The position numbers and the translations under genes are program-made. This document shows positions 8,080 to 36,995 of a stretch of DNA of 64,000 nucleotides, one piece after another. The stretch's first letter is position 1. The number at the start of each line of letters is the position of its first letter. The DNA comes from Paraglaciecola marina (GTDB lineage Bacteria; Pseudomonadota; Gammaproteobacteria; Enterobacterales; Alteromonadaceae). Below the pieces are notes generated by a model. That model was given only the letters and a program-made list of their open reading frames with translations, searched no databases and was not told where the DNA came from. Where the stretch lies: assembly GCF_004360155.1 (NCBI RefSeq), contig NZ_SAIS01000009.1, forward strand, positions 62,001 to 126,000, in the 5' to 3' direction.

Positions 8080-8895
8080 TTACTTAGCGTTAAATTGATC
8101 ACTAATATCTTTTTCTATTACACTTAGTATGCTTTTGAAACCAGGAGTCAAGCCTGAAAAAAGTAATTCTCGATTGATATAATACGGAGCCCTTTTACCG
8201 TGATATTCAACTACTGGGCCAACTTTTGTAAATACTATACCTACAAACTTTAAACTTCTAGCAAGTCTAGGTTCCATCATTACAAAGCAATGCTTTATCC
8301 CCATATTTAAACAAACGGAAGCGGCTGAAAGGTATAAGCCTACTGCTATAAATGGGAAGCATCTGAGTTCTTTTTCGGAATAATTATATTCATTAATTGA
8401 ACCTGTAGCAGAGCCTTGAAATTTATCAGTTGCTCTTTTTCTAAATTGTTTCGGGATGGCAAGTCGAGATATCTCACACACTTCCTCTCTTGGAAAGTCT
8501 GAAGGATGTACACTTTTTTCGTTAATTGCGCTGAGGCAAAATTTCTCGATTGGAAGCATTTGTTTTGGGTCTTTACTGGTTACAACTCTTACTGTCCCAG
8601 CAAAGGCCCCAGTTGGTTTATGTTTAATTAGGCAATGAAATGCTCTTGAGTCAAATTCATCAAGTTCTTCGTTGGTAGGTTGAAGCTTCTCAAACTTTAG
8701 CTCTTCACAATATACCTTATGTCTAATTTTAAATGATTCAGATTTATGACTTCTATTAATAGCAACAACAGCAGATAGGTATTCTGAAAAATGTTTGGAT
8801 ATTTGGTTTGCTTGTCTGCTTATCGCAAAGTTAATGAATAGCTTAACAAGCGGGCCAATAATTGGTTTTTCAGCGTACTTTCTTAATTTTTTCAC
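8080..8895 (-). CDS. PEP-CTERM/exosortase-associated N-acyltransferase (autoinducer-synthase fold)
   Basis: The 271-residue protein matches the exosortase-associated acyltransferase group, related to acyl-homoserine-lactone synthases. It has the FKIRHKVYCEELKFE substrate-entry segment near residue 56, FDSRAFHCLIKHKPTGAFAGTVRVV, CEISRLAIPKQFRKR, and a C-terminal GNAT-like half (FPFIAVGLYLSAASVCLNMGIKHCFVMMEPRLAR). Members of this group have been proposed to make N-acyl amino acids. It lies directly upstream of the ThiF-like gene and near a PEP-CTERM protein, which supports the assignment. Substrate is unknown. Confidence 0.78.
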   Translation of the reverse strand: MKKLRKYAEKPIIGPLVKLFINFAISRQANQISKHFSEYLSAVVAINRSHKSESFKIRHKVYCEELKFEKLQPTNEELDEFDSRAFHCLIKHKPTGAFAGTVRVVTSKDPKQMLPIEKFCLSAINEKSVHPSDFPREEVCEISRLAIPKQFRKRATDKFQGSATGSINEYNYSEKELRCFPFIAVGLYLSAASVCLNMGIKHCFVMMEPRLARSLKFVGIVFTKVGPVVEYHGKRAPYYINRELLFSGLTPGFKSILSVIEKDISDQFNAK

Positions 8896-26849: not shown

Positions 26850-27035
26850 GGATATTCTCCTATCAGGCTAATGACTATAATGTGTTGATGTTTATATACC
26901 GGTGCATCTTTCTTTAAACACGGGCATAGTGTAGCCATTATAAAGTTAATTAGTCAAATTGTTTTTATCAACATTTGATATTTATTTGTTTTGAATGTAA
27001 ATTATAACTCACGTTTGTTCTGTTTGGTGTTTAAT

Positions 27036-27341
27036 ATGTCTAGTCAAAATGACGCAAAAAATTCTCATGTCACTGCATCTCATTCTGGAGATTGGCGGCA
27101 GCTGGTACAGCGTATTCTAAAAGCTGAAATGTCGAAACGTGGTACTAAGTATCAAGACCTCAGCGATAGATTGTCTACTATAGGGGTACATCAAAGCGCA
27201 GACAACCTTAGAAATAAAGTCAATAAAGGGATTATGGGAGCAGATTTGTTGTTACAAATCATGTATGTGCTTAATATGAGAAGAATCGAGCGAGATGATA
27301 TTTTAGATATATTTGCTGATTTAGGAAGCCCACTTGAATAA
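27036..27341 (+). CDS. DUF6471-domain small protein
   Basis: The protein has about 101 residues from the ATG at 27036; a longer TTG frame from 26991 adds residues that look non-coding. WRQLVQRILKAEMSKRGTKYQDLSDRLSTIGVHQSADNLRNKVNKGIMGADLLLQIMYVLN is the DUF6471 pattern and looks like a helix-turn-helix-type DNA-binding domain. It is divergent from the yjf operon and converges on the small-RNA stretch. A regulatory role is plausible but unproven. Confidence 0.75.
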   Translation: MSSQNDAKNSHVTASHSGDWRQLVQRILKAEMSKRGTKYQDLSDRLSTIGVHQSADNLRNKVNKGIMGADLLLQIMYVLNMRRIERDDILDIFADLGSPLE

Positions 27342-27410
27342 GTGAAAGCTTTGAAGCATGTTTAAAATTTTGTTTTTAGTTAATGTTTAATTTTTGAAAG
27401 GTTACCCCCT

Positions 27411-27545
27411 AAAAAAAAGTCCGAGCAGGGCTCGGACAAGAACAGTTCTGGGAGAAACGTCAATAAAAACTGTAAGTTAATAATAAATCAGCTTGCTTAA
27501 ACCGCAATTAAAATTGGGTATCTTGGGTTAACTATAGGTATAATA
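27411..27545 (-). ncRNA. Candidate small RNA, copy 1 of a tandem family
   Basis: Read leftward, the unit begins at a conserved TATACC (27542-27537), passes a hairpin with CAGTTTTTATTGACG and a TTTCTCCC loop, and ends in a terminator whose GTCCGAGC / GCTCGGAC arms (27419-27436) are followed by eight T. No reading frame is conserved with the other copies. The 27342-28128 region has no gene. The loop sequence TTTCTCCC could pair with ribosome-binding sites. Confidence 0.65.
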
Positions 27546-27670
27546 AAGAATACCATATGGTAAATTTGGTAAGTCTTTGAATTCTAAATTAGACAACTTG
27601 GATTCTCCTAGTCTTCTTAATATTGATTGGGAGCTAATATGCAAGAGTTTGTAGGAATTTTTTGTTTTGG

Positions 27671-27815
27671 TAAAAAAAGCCCGAAATGATGATGACATCA
27701 CTCGGGCAAAAGCAGTTTTGGAAGAAACGTCAATAAAAACTGTAAAGTTATATTAATTCAGCACACCCAAACTGCAATCTAATTTGGGTATGCCCCTGTA
27801 ACCATAGGTATATAA
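27671..27815 (-). ncRNA. Candidate small RNA, copy 2 of a tandem family
   Basis: This unit has the same layout as copy 1: TATACC at 27812-27807, a middle hairpin with CCCAAA / TTTGGG arms, the conserved CAGTTTTTATTGACGTTTCT element, and a terminator with GCCCGA / TCGGGC arms plus T-run (27672-27705). Stem sequence differs from copy 1 but pairing is kept. It lies about 260 bp from copy 1. Confidence 0.65.
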
Positions 27816-27925
27816 ACTTAAACAAAGCTATAATGTTTTTATAAAAGGTAATGAGTTTAACTATCGAAATCGATGGTAATTTTTAGTGTTTAACTGGAGG
27901 ATATTTCAAATGTTTTTGGTAATGT

Positions 27926-28070
27926 AAAAAAAAGCCCGAACAGATAAAATTATCATTCAGGCAAAGAGCAGTTTTGGGAGAAACATCAATAAAACTGTGC
28001 GTAAATAGTAATCCACACAAGTCAAACTTCAATCGAAAAAGGGTATGTAGAGTAAACTAAAGGTATAAAA
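27926..28070 (-). ncRNA. Candidate small RNA, copy 3 of a tandem family
   Basis: This is the third unit, about 255 bp from copy 2 and nearest the porin stop. It has TATACC at 28067-28062, the conserved CAGTTTTATTGATG and TTTCTCCC element, and a terminator with GCCTGAA / TTCGGGC arms (one G-T pair) followed by eight T. It is the most diverged in the middle part. It lies downstream of and on the same strand as the porin gene. Confidence 0.62.
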
Positions 28071-28128
28071 AAGCACCCAAATATGAGCTGTCCTAATTTA
28101 GATGCTAATTAAGTTTACTGTTTAAGTT

Positions 28129-29292
28129 TTAAAAAGCGTATTTTGCTGTTAGTTGAATTCGTCCCATTGTTCCATCACTTCCTGATTCAAGTTCTTTCTT
28201 AGCGTATGCATATTCGCCCCCTAATGTGAGCTCCTTTGTTGGAGAGTACATTAAGTTAACGCGGGCACTTAAGGTGGATTTTATTGGATCAATAGAGCCA
28301 TTTAAGCTCATGTCGTTGTCAGCATTAAATGCTGAGTACATAAAATTACTTCGAAATTTTTCGTTCCAAATATGACGATAGGCGACAGTGAAACCAGTAG
28401 AATCTATGGCTTCTAACTCGTTATCTTCATTAAGAATAGCCCCATTAGCAACATTAAGGCCTAAGTACCTTCCCAATCCTTTACCAGTATTAGCCATTAA
28501 TCTAATATCATCTTGGCCTAGTTTAAATTTAGCGGTCAGACTCAAGCCCATCGAAGTTTCAGAAGTGTCTATATCTGTGCCATCTTGCTTGTTAATGTAA
28601 GATAATTGACGGGCTAAACCAGCTACCGCAAAATGCCCCCAATCCCCTTTAAATGTGTATCTTGCAGTAATATCAGGAAATGCATTGTCGTCTGATACTA
28701 TTCGTCCGCTGGCTTGGTAGTTTGATATGGTACTTTCAGGGTTTTCTGCTGCAATTTCAAAATTTCCTGATGTATATCTAACCATCATTTGACGAACAAA
28801 AATGGTACCGTCGGTAACACCAATAAAGTCAACACTTTCAGGTAAGGCTCTTACGTCTTGAAAGGTTGACCATGTTTGTCCAATCAACCAATTGTCATAT
28901 TTAATAAATGCATGTCGAATCCGTGGCGTATATGAGTTGCTGATGCGCTCATCTCCGCCTGCAGTGGCGTGAAAATCAAACTCCAACACGCCTGAAAGCT
29001 TTTTACCGTTTGCAAGTGCGGTATCAGTAGTAAAGCGAAACCGACTTTGTTTTATGTGTGCGTCAAATTGTGTTGATTCTTCAGTGCCACCTGTCGGAGT
29101 AAGGCTAGGTATGTAAAAGTCTCTGCCAATAGAGCCAGAAGACAAGGTACCATCGCTATATGAGCTAAACATGGCGTCGGCTTTTATATAGCCACTAAAT
29201 TTGACATTGGTTTTTTCTAATACATTAGCCTGGGCAGCGCCCGCTAAACTTGATATTACAACTGCTACTGGTAACACTCTTTTTAGTTTCAT
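28129..29292 (-). CDS. DcaP-like outer-membrane porin
   Basis: The 387-residue protein has a signal peptide (MKLKRVLPVAVVISSLAGAAQA) and an outer-membrane beta-barrel pattern ending in an aromatic residue (TAKYAF). The segments KFSGYIKADAMFSSYSDG, KQSRFRFTTDTALANGKKLSGVLEFDFH and RIRHAFIKYDNWLIGQTWSTFQD match the DcaP-type trimeric porin group. It is divergent from acs across 171 bp that hold an 11-bp triplet repeat and an inverted repeat. Uptake of small carboxylates for acs is a reasonable guess. The ribosome site is AAGGAAA. Confidence 0.83.
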   Translation of the reverse strand: MKLKRVLPVAVVISSLAGAAQANVLEKTNVKFSGYIKADAMFSSYSDGTLSSGSIGRDFYIPSLTPTGGTEESTQFDAHIKQSRFRFTTDTALANGKKLSGVLEFDFHATAGGDERISNSYTPRIRHAFIKYDNWLIGQTWSTFQDVRALPESVDFIGVTDGTIFVRQMMVRYTSGNFEIAAENPESTISNYQASGRIVSDDNAFPDITARYTFKGDWGHFAVAGLARQLSYINKQDGTDIDTSETSMGLSLTAKFKLGQDDIRLMANTGKGLGRYLGLNVANGAILNEDNELEAIDSTGFTVAYRHIWNEKFRSNFMYSAFNADNDMSLNGSIDPIKSTLSARVNLMYSPTKELTLGGEYAYAKKELESGSDGTMGRIQLTAKYAF

Positions 29293-29311
29293 TGTTTTTT
29301 CCTTACGATAT

Positions 29312-29344
29312 TTGTTTTAACATTGTTTTATCATTGTTTTAACA
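29312..29344. repeat. Three 11-bp tandem repeats upstream of porin
   Basis: The units TTGTTTTAACA, TTGTTTTATCA and TTGTTTTAACA run head to tail, differing by one base. They lie 20 bp upstream of the porin ATG. A period of one helical turn could place bound protein on one DNA face; alternatively they are part of the porin 5' untranslated RNA. Confidence 0.6.
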
Positions 29345-29377
29345 TTGGACGATTTATTAAGGTTTGCATATAGGCTG

Positions 29378-29399
29378 TTGGTCTATAAGACCAAAGTCT
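29378..29399. promoter_or_regulatory. Inverted-repeat site between porin and acs (candidate CrbR box)
   Basis: Two overlapping dyads are present: TTGGTCT-ATA-AGACCAA (29378-29394) and AGAC-CAAA-GTCT (29388-29399). They lie 65-86 bp before the acs start. AGAC-N4-GTCT recurs in front of the CrbS-like kinase gene. Binding by the LuxR-type regulator is inferred. Confidence 0.5.
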
Positions 29400-29463
29400 C
29401 ATGTAGAAATTAAGTAGTGCGGTTAAAGTATTAGCAAATAAATTCAAGTTTGGAATAAAAATT

Positions 29464-31404
29464 ATGACTGAATCTCGTTTCCCAGTGCCAGAACAGGCAA
29501 AAATAGGCTCTCATCTCACGCCAGAAAAATATCAAGAGATGTATCAAGAATCAGTCGACTCACCTGATATTTTTTGGGGTAGACAAGCAGCAACAATTGA
29601 TTGGTTTAAAGCTCCAACTAAAATTAAGAATACTTCTTTTGACAAAAACAACCTGAGCATAAGGTGGTTTGAAGATGGGGAATTAAATCTTAGTTACAAC
29701 TGTATAGATAGGCATTTACCAACAAAGGCTAACACAACTGCCATCATTTGGGAGGGAGATACGCCTGACCAAGATAAGCATATTAGCTACCAAACACTGC
29801 ATAATGAAGTATGTAAATTAGCTAATGGCTTAAAAAAATTAGGAGTGACTAAAGGCGACAGAGTGGCGATTTATATGCCGATGATCCCTGAAGCCAGTTA
29901 TGCAATGTTAGCTTGCGCACGTATAGGGGCCATCCACTCAATCATTTTTGGTGGATTTTCACCAAACGCTATAGCAGACCGAATTAATGATTGTGATGCA
30001 AAAGTTGTGATCACTTCTGATGAAGGACGCCGAGGCGGTGGCGTTGTGCCACTTAAAGTGAACGTAGATGAAGCTCTACAAGATGACAAATGTCCAAGCA
30101 TTCAACATGTTGTTGTTTTTCAAAATACAGGTGGTGATGTTGAAAAACAAAGCAGAGATATTGATTGGAAGACTTTAACCGATAGTTGCAGTTTCAACTG
30201 TGAGCCTACCGTAATGAATGCTGAAGACCCTTTATTCATTCTTTATACATCTGGTTCAACAGGCACCCCAAAAGGAGTGGTGCACACCACTGGAGGGTAC
30301 TTAGTGTATGCTTCCATGACTCATAAGTATGTATTTGACTATCGAGAAGGAGAAATATATTGGTGTGCAGCTGATGTAGGCTGGATTACGGGTCACACAT
30401 ATATGGTTTATGGTCCATTGGCAAATGGCGCAACTACATTATTATTTGAAGGTATACCGACTTACCCCGATGTGAGACGTATATGCCAAGTTGTAGATAA
30501 ACATAAAGTAAACATACTATATACAGCACCTACAGCAATACGTGCTTTAATGGCCCATGGAGATTTTCCAGCTGAAGGCAGCAGTTGTGATTCATTGAGA
30601 TTGTTGGGTTCTGTTGGAGAGCCTATTAACCCAGAAGCGTGGCATTGGTATTATGAAACTATCGGTAAAGGTCGATGCCCAATAGTAGATACTTGGTGGC
30701 AAACAGAAACTGGTGGGGTAATGATGACACCATTACCAAGCGTCACTGACTTAAAACCAGGGGCTGCAAGTACACCATTTTTTGGTATTCAGCCAGCGCT
30801 TGTAGATAGTGATGGCAAAGAATTAACGGGTGAAGCTGAAGGAAATTTAATCATTAAGGATAGTTGGCCAGCACAAGCACGTACTGTTTATGGAGACCAC
30901 GAACGTTTCATTCAAACTTATTTTAGCACCTTCGATAATGCTTACTTTACTGGTGATGGTTCTCGTAGAGATGCAGATGGCACATACTGGATAACAGGCC
31001 GAGTTGATGATGTGTTAAATGTCTCTGGACACCGTTTAGGTACCGCTGAAATTGAAAGTGCTTTGGTTTCGCACTCGGCAGTTGCCGAAGCGGCAGTTGT
31101 TGGATATCCACATGATATTAAAGGGCAGGGCATTTATGTTTATGTAAGTCCTGTTGAAGGTATCGAACCTACAGAAGAGTTAACGAAAGAACTGATCAAA
31201 TGGGTTAGAAAAGAACTTAGCCCAATAGCGTCTCCGGATTTAGTGCAGTGGACTTCAGGGTTACCTAAAACTCGTTCAGGTAAAATTATGCGCCGTATTT
31301 TGCGTAAGATTGCTGCCAATGAACATTCTCAATTAGGCGATACTTCGACACTGGCTGATCCTAGTGTGGTTGATAACTTAATCGAGAATCGCTTAGTCCG
31401 TTAA
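29464..31404 (+). CDS. acs: Acetyl-CoA synthetase
   Basis: The 646-residue AMP-forming ligase has the adenylation motifs [28 protein letters not shown] and [38 protein letters not shown], and the C-terminal acetylatable lysine in [11 protein letters not shown]. It converts acetate, ATP and CoA to acetyl-CoA in the cytoplasm. It is followed by a CrbR-like regulator and a CrbS-like sensor, the known control pair of acs in Vibrio. With isocitrate lyase it supports growth on acetate. Confidence 0.96.
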
Positions 31405-31529
31405 TCACCCATTTTTGTTTTTTATTTTTATTAGTTAGTCCGATATAGATTAATATCAAGTGATGTTATTGATTTGTATCGGTTATACTGTTTCAATAAC
31501 TAATTATTAACAAAAATAATCGCGATATC

Positions 31530-32189
31530 ATGTATACACTGCTCATTGCCGATGATCACCCTCTCTATAGAGATGCTCTTAAAGGGGCTTTAAATGGTTC
31601 TTTACAATCACTGTCACTATTAGAGGCTGGCTCTCTCGCTGACACATTAAAAATCATTGAAAGCACAGAGGTTGACCTATTGCTCTTAGATTTACACATG
31701 CCAGGAAGTCAGGACTTATTTGGATTAATTCATGTGAGAAAGTTGTTTCCAGATTTGCCGGTGATGATTATTTCAGGTTTAGAAAATAAAGATATTGTCT
31801 CCAAAGTACTAAACACTGGTGCTATGGGCTTTATACCTAAAACTACAAGTTCCGAAGATATTGCCAAGGCCGTAGAAACAGTTCTACAAGGTGATATTTG
31901 GGTGCCTGACACATTAGTCAATGAACTTGATTCTCAAGATGATGCATTTACAGAGTTAGCGGCTAAAATAGCCACATTAACTCCAGCTCAGTACAAGGTT
32001 TTATGTTTGATGCGTGATGGTTTGTTAAATAAACAAATTGCCTATGAGTTAGGAATAGCAGTGGCAACTGTAAAAGCACACGTTACAGAAGTGTTTAAAA
32101 AATTGTCTATAAATAATCGTACCCAAGGCGTGTTAATTGCCTCACAATTACAATTAGAGCCGCCTAGCCCAACTAACTGTCATCACTAA
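31530..32189 (+). CDS. crbR: LuxR-family response regulator (CrbR/ErdR type)
   Basis: The 219-residue regulator has a receiver domain (LLIADDHPLYRDALKG, phospho-acceptor Asp in VDLLLLDLHMPGSQD, Lys in FIPKTTSSED) and a C-terminal LuxR helix-turn-helix (LTPAQYKVLCLMRDGLLNKQIAYELGIAVATVKAHVTEVFKKL). It lies 125 bp after acs and converges with the transporter-kinase gene, the layout of the CrbR/CrbS acetate switch. It should activate acs. The symbol is by analogy with Vibrio. Confidence 0.85.
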   Translation: MYTLLIADDHPLYRDALKGALNGSLQSLSLLEAGSLADTLKIIESTEVDLLLLDLHMPGSQDLFGLIHVRKLFPDLPVMIISGLENKDIVSKVLNTGAMGFIPKTTSSEDIAKAVETVLQGDIWVPDTLVNELDSQDDAFTELAAKIATLTPAQYKVLCLMRDGLLNKQIAYELGIAVATVKAHVTEVFKKLSINNRTQGVLIASQLQLEPPSPTNCHH

Positions 32190-32225
32190 GTTTAGTTATT
32201 AAAGAACCGTAAAATGTTTTGAGTA

Positions 32226-35200
32226 TTATATTTTAGTTTTAAAGCTATTCAATAAAGCACGTAATTTAGCGGGTTTAATAGGTTTACTGAGATATTCCAC
32301 TCCTTGTTGTTTACATTGCTGCAGTAAATTTTGTTCTCGATTAGCTGTCACTAAAATGGCTGGCAAAGCTTTACCCATTCGCTCTCTTAGCTTCGCGATT
32401 AACTGTAAGCCATTTTCTGAATCTGATAATTGGTAATCCACCAAAAGAGCATTGGGTTCAAATTTGGCTGCGATTGTTATGGCTTGATACGTAGTTTGTA
32501 CGCAGCTATTTAAAATATTCCACTTCTCAAATAGGGTTGAAATTGCATCTAAATTTTCTGCTATGTCATCAACACACAATACTTTTAATTTCGCTAAGTC
32601 GGTTTTAACGGCTGGTAATGTGATTGGTGAAAAAGGTTGAGGTGTTGCTATGGGTAAGATTATTGAAAAACAACTTCCTTTTCCTAGTTTAGAGCGAAGT
32701 GTGATGGGTATATCAAGTTTTTCTTTTAATCTAGATACCACGCCTAGACCTAGCCCTACACCTTGTACTAGATGTTCTGTAACGCGGTAAAAGTCGTCAA
32801 ATACTTTTTGTTGTTCAGATTTGGCCATACCTATTCCAGTATCCCAGACCTGCAGTAATACTGATGGGTCACCATCAGTTGAGGTGCGAATTCTAGCCGT
32901 GATTAGTATCTTTCCTGTATTAGTATACTTAATAGCGTTAGATAACAGATTCTGTACAATTCGATATAATGATGTTTTATCCGATGTGACCCAACAATCA
33001 GTAAGTCGAGTCCGAAAGTCTAATCCTTGCTCTTTTGCTTTCATTGAAAATTCATCGATTAATGGGCTAAGCAACATCCTCAAAGACATGGGCTCTTTGT
33101 TAATACTTAACTCATTTTGATCTAGTCTGGCTATATCTAATAAAGTCGCGATTAAGGTTTCGCTCGAAATAACGCTGTCATTTAGTTTATTTAATACCTC
33201 TCTTACATCATTGGCCACATCTGCTTCATCTAAAACTGATAAATAAAGTTTTGCAGCATTTAAAGGTTGCAACACATCGTGACTAGCAAAAGCTAAGAAA
33301 CGCGTTTTACTAGCATTGGCTTCTTCTGCTGCTTGTTTGGCCTTGACTAGGTCGTGTTCCAATTGCGCTCGGCGGTCTATTTCCAATCTAAGCTCGGCAT
33401 TAATTGCTTGTACTTCTTGGCCTCGTCGCTCAATTCTTCTTTCCAGATTTATATTGGCTTCTTTTAGTGCTTTTTGAATCTCGATATGTGAAGTAATGTC
33501 TGCGAAACTAGTTACAAAGCCGCCACCAGGCAGAGGATTACCGACCATCTCAATCATCTTTCCATCGCTACGTTGGCGCACAAATTTATGAGGGTGGCCT
33601 GCTTTTAAATGATCGATTCGTTTTTTAACTAAAGTTTCTACTTCACCAATACCACATTCACCTCTTACGGCATTAAAATAGACCATTTTCTCTATAGGAG
33701 TACCGACACTTATTAAATCGTCTGGGTAGTCGAACAACTGCAAATAACGTTTATTCCACGCTACTAGATTAAGATTTTTATCTATTACGCTTATCCCTTG
33801 TTCTAAATTCTCGATAGAAGTGAAAAGTGCTGAAGCATTAAATTGGATAGCTTGGGTGGTATCGTCGAAAAATGTTACCACTTCTTCAAAGTTGAGTTTT
33901 TTACCAATTAGTACACTATCTATTAACCGTTTAGCACTTGAGCTCCCCAAAACTCCTCCTAGAGCTTTTTCACAAAACATTAAAAAGTCGGGTTGAGGTG
34001 GCTTCTGCCAATCTAGTTGTATGCCACTGCGGCGTTCAAAATCTACTAACAAACTTTGAGTTCGTGGTTCACCTAGAAAGGTTGAAAGTAGAGTTGATAA
34101 ATCACTTACTGTTGCTAAGGTTTGCCTTTTTTTTGATTCGTCTACTTGTCCCTCTCGAGGAGACACAAATGCCTGAGACTGCAAGCGGTCAATCAGTCTG
34201 TCTGGGGCAAAATACGAGAAAACAATATAGGCAAATGTATTAATGCTTAGACTAAGGAGAGCTACCATACTGATGGCGTCAGAATGTAAAGTGTCATTAG
34301 CCAACTCGTTACTTAAAGGTAAGATAATCCACAATATCCAGGTAAACAAACCACTCAATAAACCGGCATAGACACCATGTGCATGGCCTTTTTTCCAATA
34401 TAATCCACCCACAATGGCAGGAAGAAGCTGTATGACTAAAGAGAAAGCTATTAATCCTATGGAAGCTAATGAGCGACTTCCGGTCATCTGTTGTTGATAA
34501 ATATATGCCAGTAGCAATAAACACCCAATAACTAAACGCCTTACAATTAAAATCACACTCGCATAATTTTTACTGGTGTTAGTAGAAGTGTCTTCATTAT
34601 GTGGTTTGGACAAAATTTTAGGCATGATGACATCATTGGTGATCATAGTACTCAAGGTAAGGGTAGCGATAATAATCATAGCCGTGGCTGCAGATAAACC
34701 TCCTAGAAATACCAGCACTTGAATGAGTATAGTGTCAGATGCCATTGCTAAACTAAGGACGTAAGTGTCTGGATCTTGATCACCTAAAATGGTTTGCCCT
34801 GAAGCTGCAATGATGGGAATAACCGCGGCAGTAATAGCCAAGTACAATGGGAATAGCCATCGAGCCGTTCTAAGGTGCTTTAATTTAAGGTTATCGATGA
34901 CGGCAATATGATATTGACGTGGCAAGCAAACCACAGCTGCTGCCGCCATTACAGTTTGAGCAATAAATGAAAATGAGCCAAAGTCGCTAATATCGTTAAA
35001 GTTTTTTAATGTATTTTTAAACGTCTCTTGATCCACGGATATCGACCAGCGATAGCCAATAAAGCAAACTCCAACTAATGCTGCCAACTTCAAAGACGAT
35101 TCCAGTGCTATTGCCAAGATTAAACCATGCCTATGTTCTGTGACATCTGTTCGTTGGGTACCAAAATAAATAGAAAATAAGGCAATAAAACCAGTGGCTA

Positions 35201-35666
35201 ACATTACTATAAGCTCACTATTTTCTTGTTTGGTTACTATCTGGAAAGCTGCACCAATGGCTTTTAGTTGCAATGCCACATACGGGATTGTGGCCAATAA
35301 AGCGATTATAGTGACTAATAAAGCAACTAATTGTCTTTTGCCATATCGTGAGGAAATAAAGTCGGCAATAGTTGTAATATGTTGTTTTTTGCTAACGAGA
35401 GTAAGCTTAAATATAAACCGATAACCAAATAGATACACTATTATTGGTCCAAGTAATATTGGAAGGTATTGCCATGTATTACGGGCGGCTTCGCCCACTG
35501 CACCGAAGAATGTCCAGGCAGTACAATAAATTGCTAATGCAAGAGAGTATATAACCGGATGGGAAGTAAGCTTTGTCGCTAAGGGAGATCCCTTTTCTCC
35601 CCATTTCGCTACAAAAAACAACCCAACTAAGTAGGTTAACGCTAATATAATCCAACCAAATGCCAT
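32226..35666 (-). CDS. crbS: Hybrid sensor kinase with sodium/solute-symporter domain (CrbS/MxtR type)
   Basis: The 1146-residue protein has, in order, a sodium:solute symporter-like region of about 13 membrane helices (residues ~1-500), a linker of the STAC type, a PAS domain (IENLEQGISVIDKNLNLVAWNKRYLQLFDYP), a kinase with the phospho-His in FASHDVLQPLNA (about 793), and HATPase boxes (LLSNAIKYT, VGLGLGVVSRL). It ends in a receiver domain (LKVLCVDDIAEN; Asp in ALLVDYQLSD, about 1075). It should sense acetate-linked signals and phosphorylate the neighbouring regulator. It converges with that gene; 36 bp separate them. Confidence 0.9.
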   Translation of the reverse strand: MAFGWIILALTYLVGLFFVAKWGEKGSPLATKLTSHPVIYSLALAIYCTAWTFFGAVGEAARNTWQYLPILLGPIIVYLFGYRFIFKLTLVSKKQHITTIADFISSRYGKRQLVALLVTIIALLATIPYVALQLKAIGAAFQIVTKQENSELIVMLATGFIALFSIYFGTQRTDVTEHRHGLILAIALESSLKLAALVGVCFIGYRWSISVDQETFKNTLKNFNDISDFGSFSFIAQTVMAAAAVVCLPRQYHIAVIDNLKLKHLRTARWLFPLYLAITAAVIPIIAASGQTILGDQDPDTYVLSLAMASDTILIQVLVFLGGLSAATAMIIIATLTLSTMITNDVIMPKILSKPHNEDTSTNTSKNYASVILIVRRLVIGCLLLLAYIYQQQMTGSRSLASIGLIAFSLVIQLLPAIVGGLYWKKGHAHGVYAGLLSGLFTWILWIILPLSNELANDTLHSDAISMVALLSLSINTFAYIVFSYFAPDRLIDRLQSQAFVSPREGQVDESKKRQTLATVSDLSTLLSTFLGEPRTQSLLVDFERRSGIQLDWQKPPQPDFLMFCEKALGGVLGSSSAKRLIDSVLIGKKLNFEEVVTFFDDTTQAIQFNASALFTSIENLEQGISVIDKNLNLVAWNKRYLQLFDYPDDLISVGTPIEKMVYFNAVRGECGIGEVETLVKKRIDHLKAGHPHKFVRQRSDGKMIEMVGNPLPGGGFVTSFADITSHIEIQKALKEANINLERRIERRGQEVQAINAELRLEIDRRAQLEHDLVKAKQAAEEANASKTRFLAFASHDVLQPLNAAKLYLSVLDEADVANDVREVLNKLNDSVISSETLIATLLDIARLDQNELSINKEPMSLRMLLSPLIDEFSMKAKEQGLDFRTRLTDCWVTSDKTSLYRIVQNLLSNAIKYTNTGKILITARIRTSTDGDPSVLLQVWDTGIGMAKSEQQKVFDDFYRVTEHLVQGVGLGLGVVSRLKEKLDIPITLRSKLGKGSCFSIILPIATPQPFSPITLPAVKTDLAKLKVLCVDDIAENLDAISTLFEKWNILNSCVQTTYQAITIAAKFEPNALLVDYQLSDSENGLQLIAKLRERMGKALPAILVTANREQNLLQQCKQQGVEYLSKPIKPAKLRALLNSFKTKI

Positions 35667-35939: not shown

Positions 35940-36995
35940 ATGAAATTATCTGATTTTCAATTTGATTTACCTGAAGCACTTATAGCTCGGTACCCTACCA
36001 AGCAACGTACAGCAAGTCGTTTGATGCACCTAGATGGTGACAGTGGAGTTGTTTCCCATAAAAAATTTAGCGACATAGTCAGTCTAGTTAATGAGGGCGA
36101 CCTTTTAATTTTTAATAATACTAGAGTGATACCGGCTCGTTTGCTTGGGCAAAAGGAGTCTGGCGGTAAAGTAGAAGTATTAGTGGAGAGGGTGCTAGAC
36201 CAACACAGGGTATTGGCACATGTCAGAGCCAGTAAATCACCTAAAGTTGGGACACTACTAATTCTTGAAAATCACCTAAAAGCTGAAATGGTGCAACGTC
36301 ATGATGCCTTATTTGAGTTGAAATTTCTTAATGAGGAAACAGTGTTAGCATTGCTTGAGCAATATGGGCATATGCCGCTCCCACCATACATCGACAGGCC
36401 AGATGAAGAGTCTGATAAAGAGCGCTATCAAACTGTATATAACCAGGTCCCTGGAGCTGTTGCCGCTCCTACTGCAGGTTTGCATTTTGATGAAGCGATT
36501 TTACAGCAGCTTAAAGACAAAGGGGTTAATTCTGAGTTCGTCACTTTACACGTTGGGGCAGGCACTTTTCAGCCTGTTAGAGTAGATAATATTTTTGAGC
36601 ATCAAATGCACTCTGAATATGCAGAGGTTTCGCAACAGGTTGTTGATGCTATCGTAGCCACTAAAGCCGAGGGTAAAAGAGTAATAGCAGTGGGTACCAC
36701 CTCGGTACGTTCACTTGAGTCTGCAGCGCAAGCCTCATTAAAATTAGGTAAGCCTCTACAACCATTCTTCAGTGACACCGATATCTTTATTTATCCGGGT
36801 TACGAATTTCAGCTAGTTGACGCTATGTTAACTAACTTTCATTTATCTGAATCAACCTTACTGATGTTGGTAAGTGCTTTCTGTGGTAAGGCAAATATTG
36901 ATTTTGCATATCAACAGGCAATCGAGCACAAGTATCGATTTTTTAGTTATGGAGATGCTATGTTTTTAGAGAGAGCAAAAGCCATAGATAAATAG
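35940..36995 (+). CDS. queA: S-adenosylmethionine:tRNA ribosyltransferase-isomerase
   Basis: The 351-residue enzyme shows the QueA pattern: [23 protein letters not shown] at the N-terminus, [40 protein letters not shown] and [19 protein letters not shown]. It builds the epoxyqueuosine ring on tRNA. The functional partner tgt lies 2 kb downstream, separated by an inverted chemoreceptor gene; in many gammaproteobacteria the two are adjacent. Confidence 0.96.

Follow-up and report, generated by a model that had tools for sequence, protein, structure and literature searches.

MicA, RybB and VrrA are short Hfq-type small RNAs (sRNAs) of gammaproteobacteria that belong to the sigmaE type, and the consensus of sigmaE promoters reads GAACTT/TCTGA. 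The sRNAs NmsRA/NmsRB of Neisseria (NgncR_162/163), according to excerpts of two reports, are encoded in tandem, are 70–78% alike and repress through UC-rich anti-Shine-Dalgarno stretches situated between or in stem-loops (PMC5362039, PMC9973317). The window, that is the whole stretch of 64,000 nucleotides from Paraglaciecola marina analyzed here, contains on its minus strand three diverged units between the gene of a DUF6471 protein and the gene of a DcaP-type porin (28129–29292, minus strand). As far as the description in these excerpts goes, the units are like the Neisseria siblings in being tandem sibling genes with a UC-rich, anti-Shine-Dalgarno-like sequence; however, the Neisseria pair has two copies with three stem-loops, whereas the window has three copies with two predicted stem-loops and other flanking genes, and relatives have a single copy. 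From the sigmaE-type sRNAs the units differ in their promoter-like elements, which have the form TTGnnn/TAnnnT and not GAACTT/TCTGA.

Do the units belong to a known RNA family? Rfam, named as a check in the original prediction, yielded no Rfam 15 family at gathering score in the window or in 18 homologue loci, and a permissive scan gave only weak matches. The best of these was RF02278 (Betaproteobacteria_toxic_sRNA) against copy 1, which shares a UGUCUCC-like stretch followed by a terminator with U-run but reaches 22.9 bits with a gathering score of 50; the alignment covers mainly a short CU stretch and a generic terminator. RF00519 (suhB/mmgR) shares with copy 1 the UUUCCUCCC stretch and a subsequent terminator but differs in the 5′ part (20.5 bits, threshold 41), and VrrA and MicX are matched far below threshold in the same scan. 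No paper on a queA-linked sRNA family was found among the top-ranked results for broad terms in open-licence PubMed Central. Relative to Rfam 15 and these limited literature searches the family is new and apparently undescribed, albeit of a known kind.

The three units of the window

Repeat search, alignment and folding bear out the original prediction of three minus-strand copies in a gene-free gap (Table 1), in which an ORF scan found no open reading frame of at least 60 amino acids. By repeat search, copies 1 and 2 are 79% identical over 91 nt, and a core of 31 nt is common to all three copies, with 87% and 90% identity to copy 1. The spacing, given originally as about 255–260 bp, is 255–256 in one interval but 270 in the other and hence not equal. 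Each unit has its own promoter-like elements and terminates within the intergenic region in a terminator-like hairpin with a U-run, a predicted intrinsic terminator, and the 131–141-nt stretches fold better than 200 of 200 shuffles each (z −2.95, −4.44 and −4.18 for copies 1, 2 and 3). The terminator stems, said to differ in sequence and to keep pairing, do pair in all three copies with one mismatch, three stem pairs being changed on both sides. TATACC and the CAGTTTT/AAAACTG pairing are likewise present in the copies, and the element described as TTTCTCCC was found, except that copy 2 reads TTTCTTCC. At the level of sequence, the original reading as sibling genes of sRNA type on the minus strand, with terminators and a CU-rich core, is supported. 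Elsewhere in the window, the sRNA model scores weakly at positions 8721–8802 (minus strand; 17.6 bits, E 0.025), probably by chance.

Table 1. Coordinates of the sRNA units, their predicted elements and their usual neighbors in the window.
Feature	Position	Strand	Remarks
DUF6471 protein gene (PF20075), usual convergent sRNA neighbor	27036..27341	+	XRE-like predicted fold
sRNA copy 1, predicted transcript ~64 nt	27411..27474	-	5′ end inferred from -10 element, +/-3 nt
Copy 1 terminator stem-loop	27419..27437	-	U-run 27411-27418
Copy 1 core GACGTTTCTCCC, proposed anti-Shine-Dalgarno seed	27450..27461	-	
Copy 1 promoter-like elements	27480..27507	-	TTGCGG (27502-27507), 16-nt spacer, TATTAT (27480-27485)
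Copy 1 twin ATACC boxes, proposed activator sites	27517..27541	-	27537-27541 and 27517-27521, 20 nt apart
sRNA copy 2, predicted transcript ~74 nt	27671..27744	-	
Copy 2 terminator stem-loop	27679..27707	-	U-run 27671-27678
Copy 2 core GACGTTTCTTCC	27720..27731	-	one change vs copy 1
Copy 2 promoter-like elements	27750..27777	-	TTGCAG, 16 nt, TAATAT
Copy 2 twin ATACC boxes	27787..27811	-	
sRNA copy 3, predicted transcript ~74 nt	27926..27999	-	
Copy 3 terminator stem-loop	27934..27962	-	U-run 27926-27933
Copy 3 core GATGTTTCTCCC	27976..27987	-	
Copy 3 promoter-like elements	28005..28032	-	TTGAAG, 16 nt, TACTAT
Copy 3 twin ATACC boxes	28042..28066	-	
queA, usual divergent sRNA neighbor in relatives	35940..36977	+	tblastn 74% identity over 346 aa

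Homologues and their distribution

A covariance model built from the three copies of the window (R1) matched 15 of 147 genomes of the family, the own genome included, and a second model built from 16 units (R2) matched 125 of 246 family genomes at E ≤ 0.01 among the matches listed (stricter filters). As carriers we counted, among the matches listed, 41 family genomes including the window's own. Twenty-six of these, again among the matches listed, reach at least 60 bits; every one of the 12 genomes listed for the window's genus is included, together with nine of genus g9 and one each of five others. A further 15 at 32–52 bits were accepted for their position between queA and DUF6471. The weaker or partial R2 matches L160, L166, L167, L175, L178, L179, L182 and L200 stayed outside the count of 41 and the 33 rows of the larger alignment, and the remaining R2 matches are partial, weak or from other terminator-bearing arrays. 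Among the 41 counted carriers three units were seen in the window's genome only and one unit in the relatives, so that 'multicopy', as the family had originally been characterized, is not supported as a family trait. In a class-wide sample of 369 genomes no full-length match was found in the other 368, and four other genomes match the 3′ part of the model alone (from position 63, 89, 94 or 96). A further genome scan gave matches in Paraglaciecola, Aliiglaciecola, Aestuariibacter halophilus and other Alteromonadaceae and two chance-like ones. L126 (Desulfotignum MAG) and L131 (Bacteroidetes MAG), two matches from beyond the family, have no terminator in the sequence viewed and were taken as chance and not as homologues.

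Promoter-like anatomy and probable start of the RNA

Where would the RNA start? The first 70 or so bases of each unit align with those of relatives as a putative promoter composed of two ATAC(C) boxes, TTGnnn, a 16-nt spacer and TAnnnT. In the 16-unit alignment 15 units contain TTG and 15 have TAnnnT at a common column, with 16 nt between the two elements and L010 as exception, while no other tested column contains TAnnnT in more than 5 of the 16; in the 33-row alignment it stands at one column in 32 rows, the next best column having 9. These counts derive from units collected with covariance models that both include the promoter columns, which biases the collected units towards having such columns. 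A simple promoter scan picked up none of the three predicted promoters, and a mechanical terminator scan only the terminator of copy 1, its sites being no more numerous than in shuffles (2 versus 2.0).

The twin boxes are ATACC-N15-ATAC direct repeats, 20 nt apart in 17/17 units, and ATAC is retained in both boxes in all 17, ATACC in 16 and 12 of them. Allowing at most one mismatch, the strict twin-box consensus has a total of 25 matches, spread over 19 of 26 genomes; 19 matches coincide with the sRNA locus and 6 lie at other sites, as compared to a single match for the reversed-pattern control. In the window's own genome the strict consensus has no match. A global twin-box regulon was considered and discarded, as the loose pattern is at background in the own genome (66 versus 80 for the reversed pattern) and the strict pattern marks mostly the sRNA locus.

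Since the upstream blocks are promoter-like, the RNA start lies most likely about 7 nt after the −10 element, giving 64, 74 and 74 nt in the window. The RNA proper is predicted to comprise about 64–74 nt, with a GAYGTTTCTCCC-like core, often within a 5′ stem, and a terminator. The RNA of about 140 nt starting at TATACC that was originally proposed is not supported, as its upstream part aligns as boxes plus −35 and −10 elements. Such a long RNA, with the upstream half as part of the transcript, would be consistent with the conservation of TATACC and ATACCC, with the better folding of the long forms as compared to shuffles and with a 14-bp upstream hairpin that copy 2 can form. However, copies 1 and 3 lack this hairpin, RNAalifold gives no upstream pairs common to the three copies, and in relatives the upstream half retains only short blocks at fixed DNA spacing; we hold the long form to be very unlikely.

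Core, stems and candidate targets

Within the otherwise diverged RNA a short seed is conserved. Of the 33 aligned rows, 25 contain the core GAYGT(2-4)CTCC and 28 contain TTCTCC, rows with a changed core (L009, L010, L150, L153, L154, L159, L195 and window copy 2) having been kept. The covariance search suggested with the original prediction uncovered homologues, and it revealed covariation in the terminator stem: across 16 units 95.2% of cells are paired and 6 of 8 pairs are changed on both sides (0 of 500 shuffles each), the corresponding figure for further pair types being 30 of 500 shuffles. Covariation of the stem is a general feature of terminators. In 24 of 33 rows the core is predicted to sit within a stem of 4 or more pairs, with 14.1 rows expected from shuffles, which makes it likely that many members form a 5′ hairpin; the sequence of this hairpin is not conserved across genera. 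The CAGTTTT/AAAACTG stem, part of the element originally singled out as best conserved, is not retained as sequence beyond close relatives. Accessibility of the core is hardly above that of core-keeping shuffles (0.77 versus 0.74), and excess accessibility was therefore dropped as an argument.

Which mRNAs could be bound? The complement of the 12-base core is found at 17 places in 12 genomes of the genus, 9 of which are the sRNA loci themselves, with 20 places for the reversed control; outside the sRNA loci of these 12 genomes it is at background level, and one of the 8 places concerned (L203) directly precedes a 94-aa ORF. The 9-base complement GGGAGAAAC stands before an ATG at 19 places in five genomes versus 14 in the control and recurs at one gene only, hflC, in 5/5 genomes. 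hflC was rejected as target, as there is a strong Shine-Dalgarno sequence within the end of hflK and three genomes outside the carrier count have GGGAGAAAT, GGGAGGAAT and GGGAGGGAG at this site; the junction could be read for 20 of the 30 loci, while the start filter missed the remaining 10. For DUF2170 and queA, 1769 and 1123 of 2000 permutations, respectively, were at least as strong as the observed pairing, and the sRNA of the own genome did no better than those of others (30 rows in each case). For DUF6471 the number was 57 of 2000, with uncertain start codons (31 rows).

Alternatively, the RNA could bind a protein, or act as sponge for another sRNA or mRNA, with copy number titrating the partner. 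The three copies in the window, a core not more accessible than in shuffles and the failure to find a conserved mRNA target would fit such a role, but the conserved part is an anti-Shine-Dalgarno-like CU stretch and no repeated motif is seen within one RNA, and such a role seems improbable to us. We favor mRNA pairing: because the core is anti-Shine-Dalgarno in character, and by analogy with the Neisseria siblings, the sRNA probably acts by masking ribosome-binding sites and thereby silencing the mRNAs.

Genomic neighborhood and evolution

When relatives are selected by score only (25 genomes), all 25 have queA divergent from the unit and 23 have DUF6471 convergent with it; of the other two, one is cut off by a contig end and G047 carries DUF6471 at a distance of about 20 kb. 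If the 15 relatives selected partly by position are added, the numbers become 40/40 for queA and 38/40 for DUF6471 (genome G144 is counted twice in the 41-row neighborhood table). The candidate sRNA gene has a steady genomic address in this marine bacterial family, namely queA–sRNA–DUF6471–DUF2170. In the window, about 7.9 kb lie between queA and the nearest unit; the intervening block of about 8 kb carries porin, acs, CrbR-like and CrbS-like genes, and no unit is present upstream of queA (best score 4.8 bits). This block (28129–35666; DcaP-type porin, acs, CrbR-like, CrbS-like) has the appearance of an insertion or rearrangement in the window's lineage. Because relatives have a single unit beside queA and the three units of the window form a supported clade in the tree (99/89), triplication and separation from queA arose, judging by synteny and phylogeny, in the window's lineage. 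Since the porin-bearing block parts the units from queA, the porin is to be seen as incidental, and its original designation as a meaningful neighbor is not supported, relatives having queA and DUF6471 instead.

Could the conserved segment be shared control DNA and not an sRNA gene, with operators serving the divergent queA and a terminator serving the convergent DUF6471 gene? In relatives 45–280 nt separate the first box from the queA start codon, the end of the unit is 7–180 nt away from DUF6471 in 35 of 39 rows, and 17 fetched loci with DUF6471 and without a queA match in the stretch held no unit, the window being the exception. Yet the three units of the window persist complete 7.9 kb from queA, all retaining boxes, promoter-like elements, core and terminator, while the queA upstream region has none; moreover, the core between promoter and terminator is retained as well as the boxes, and the U-run is on the sRNA strand. 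We consider shared control DNA unlikely and keep to sRNA genes.

CbrB drives CrcZ in Pseudomonas, and in a similar manner the units could encode sRNAs in an acetate regulon of the adjoining CrbS/CrbR-like genes (29464–35666), since acs, a hybrid kinase and an ErdR-like LuxR-type regulator (195 bits, where the NCBIfam cut-off is 390) adjoin them. In the 40 relatives, however, queA is the neighbor instead, the acs upstream region contains no ATACC, and the boxes give AC-N5-GT at best, as opposed to AC-N4-GT in the four ACTU examples printed in the excerpt of the source (PMC5715377). Such a regulon is highly improbable in our view, and control of the units by CrbR is disfavored by this difference in spacing from the four printed examples and by the acs/CrbR/CrbS neighborhood not being common to relatives. 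Upstream of acs itself, AAGACCAAAGTCTCAT at 29387–29402 resembles the printed CrbR ACTU examples (PMC5715377) and fits the adjoining CrbR/CrbS-like genes.

The DUF6471 protein

DUF6471 is present in 26/26 high-scoring genomes and occurs also without the unit, as in five loci without recognizable unit, of which L158, L172, L177 and L180 have queA close by and L157 has no queA match. The protein is predicted to adopt an XRE-like helix-turn-helix fold (mean pLDDT 82). Its model aligns to C.Esp1396I with a Z of 10.3 and an rmsd of 1.7 over 73 residues, a middling Z for a helical model, for which values below about 13 may mean little, and a Foldseek search with the model gave no match at E ≤ 0.001. 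As activator acting on the boxes DUF6471 is not preferred: ATACC/GGTAT is at chance level upstream of DUF6471 genes (23 in 13,696 bases), another conserved element is found there, and the protein occurs without the sRNA. By eye, this palindrome-like element, GTAAATTATA-N-TCAC, can be made out in front of the DUF6471 genes of many family members (window 26850–27035). It may be the operator of DUF6471 itself, and because the element differs from the boxes DUF6471 is not named as the regulator. No paper on DUF6471 was found in the open-licence subset of PubMed Central.

Proposed mode of action

The copies, promoter-like elements, terminator hairpins, conservation and synteny are read directly from the DNA. 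In our opinion it is rather likely that the units of the window are sibling genes of trans-acting sRNAs with an activator-aided promoter and an anti-Shine-Dalgarno core, derived from one ancestral copy by triplication. Each unit would be an independent small-RNA gene driven by a sigma-70-type promoter (TTGnnn-16-TAnnnT), with a putative activator binding to the pair of ATAC(C) boxes, spaced by 20 bp, that closely precedes the −35 element. The resulting RNA of about 64–74 nt would expose the CU-rich GAYGUUUCUCCC, often within a 5′ stem, and end in an intrinsic terminator with a U-tail. Its CU stretch would pair, probably with the help of Hfq, with purine-rich ribosome-binding sites of several mRNAs and thereby lower their translation. 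The single ancestral copy between queA and DUF6471 would have been triplicated in the window's lineage, which could raise the dosage and allow for small differences in targets, the seed of copy 2 being changed.

Other CU-loop arrays and significance

Further sRNA-like arrays were observed in the family. Four genus-mates (G117, G161, G141 and G212; loci L086:1147–3140, L087, L088 and L089) contain tandem arrays of seven to ten units with a core GTGTGTTTTAGTTTATGTGTGTTTCC and a terminator, about 170–420 nt apart, adjoining a transglycosylase-like lipoprotein gene and in L086 also a gshA-like gene (names read from the ORFs). Their upstream GAACTWA-N15/16-GTC elements look like sigmaE promoters. 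The exact 19-nt GTGTGTTTTAGTTTATGTGTGTTTCC core was found in 5 of 196 family genomes, all of the genus of these arrays, and is absent from the window's genome. In G178, G210 and G087 (L090, L091, L092 and L093) sRNA-like copies with a core CAGTTAACTTTCATAGTTTTCCTCCCTGAAATG and a terminator are dispersed between genes, mostly every 1–3.5 kb. One of them, L090:7751–7826, just passes the Rfam threshold of suhB/mmgR (41.9 versus 41) and, if a true member, extends that family to Alteromonadaceae. At L094:1631–2384 (G035) there is a tandem set of four units, whose cores are TTTTTGTTTATCTCCCTAAAC-like and whose upstream elements resemble GAACTAA/GTCTGA.

It is a tentative and still rather doubtful idea that local amplification of short CU-loop sRNA genes has occurred repeatedly in Alteromonadaceae, in the queA-linked family to three copies and in other genomes, with CU-loop sRNAs of different build, to the tandem or dispersed sets just described, as a recurrent tuning of anti-Shine-Dalgarno control. 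The queA-linked family would then be under a twin-box activator largely dedicated to it, given that the sRNA locus accounts for 19 of the 25 strict twin-box matches in relatives. The present analysis adds a conserved sRNA-type family that is absent from Rfam 15 at threshold, and its promoter-like anatomy offers a way in to the regulator of the sRNA. The natural contrast between one copy in relatives and three copies in the window makes dosage and seed divergence of sibling sRNAs testable.
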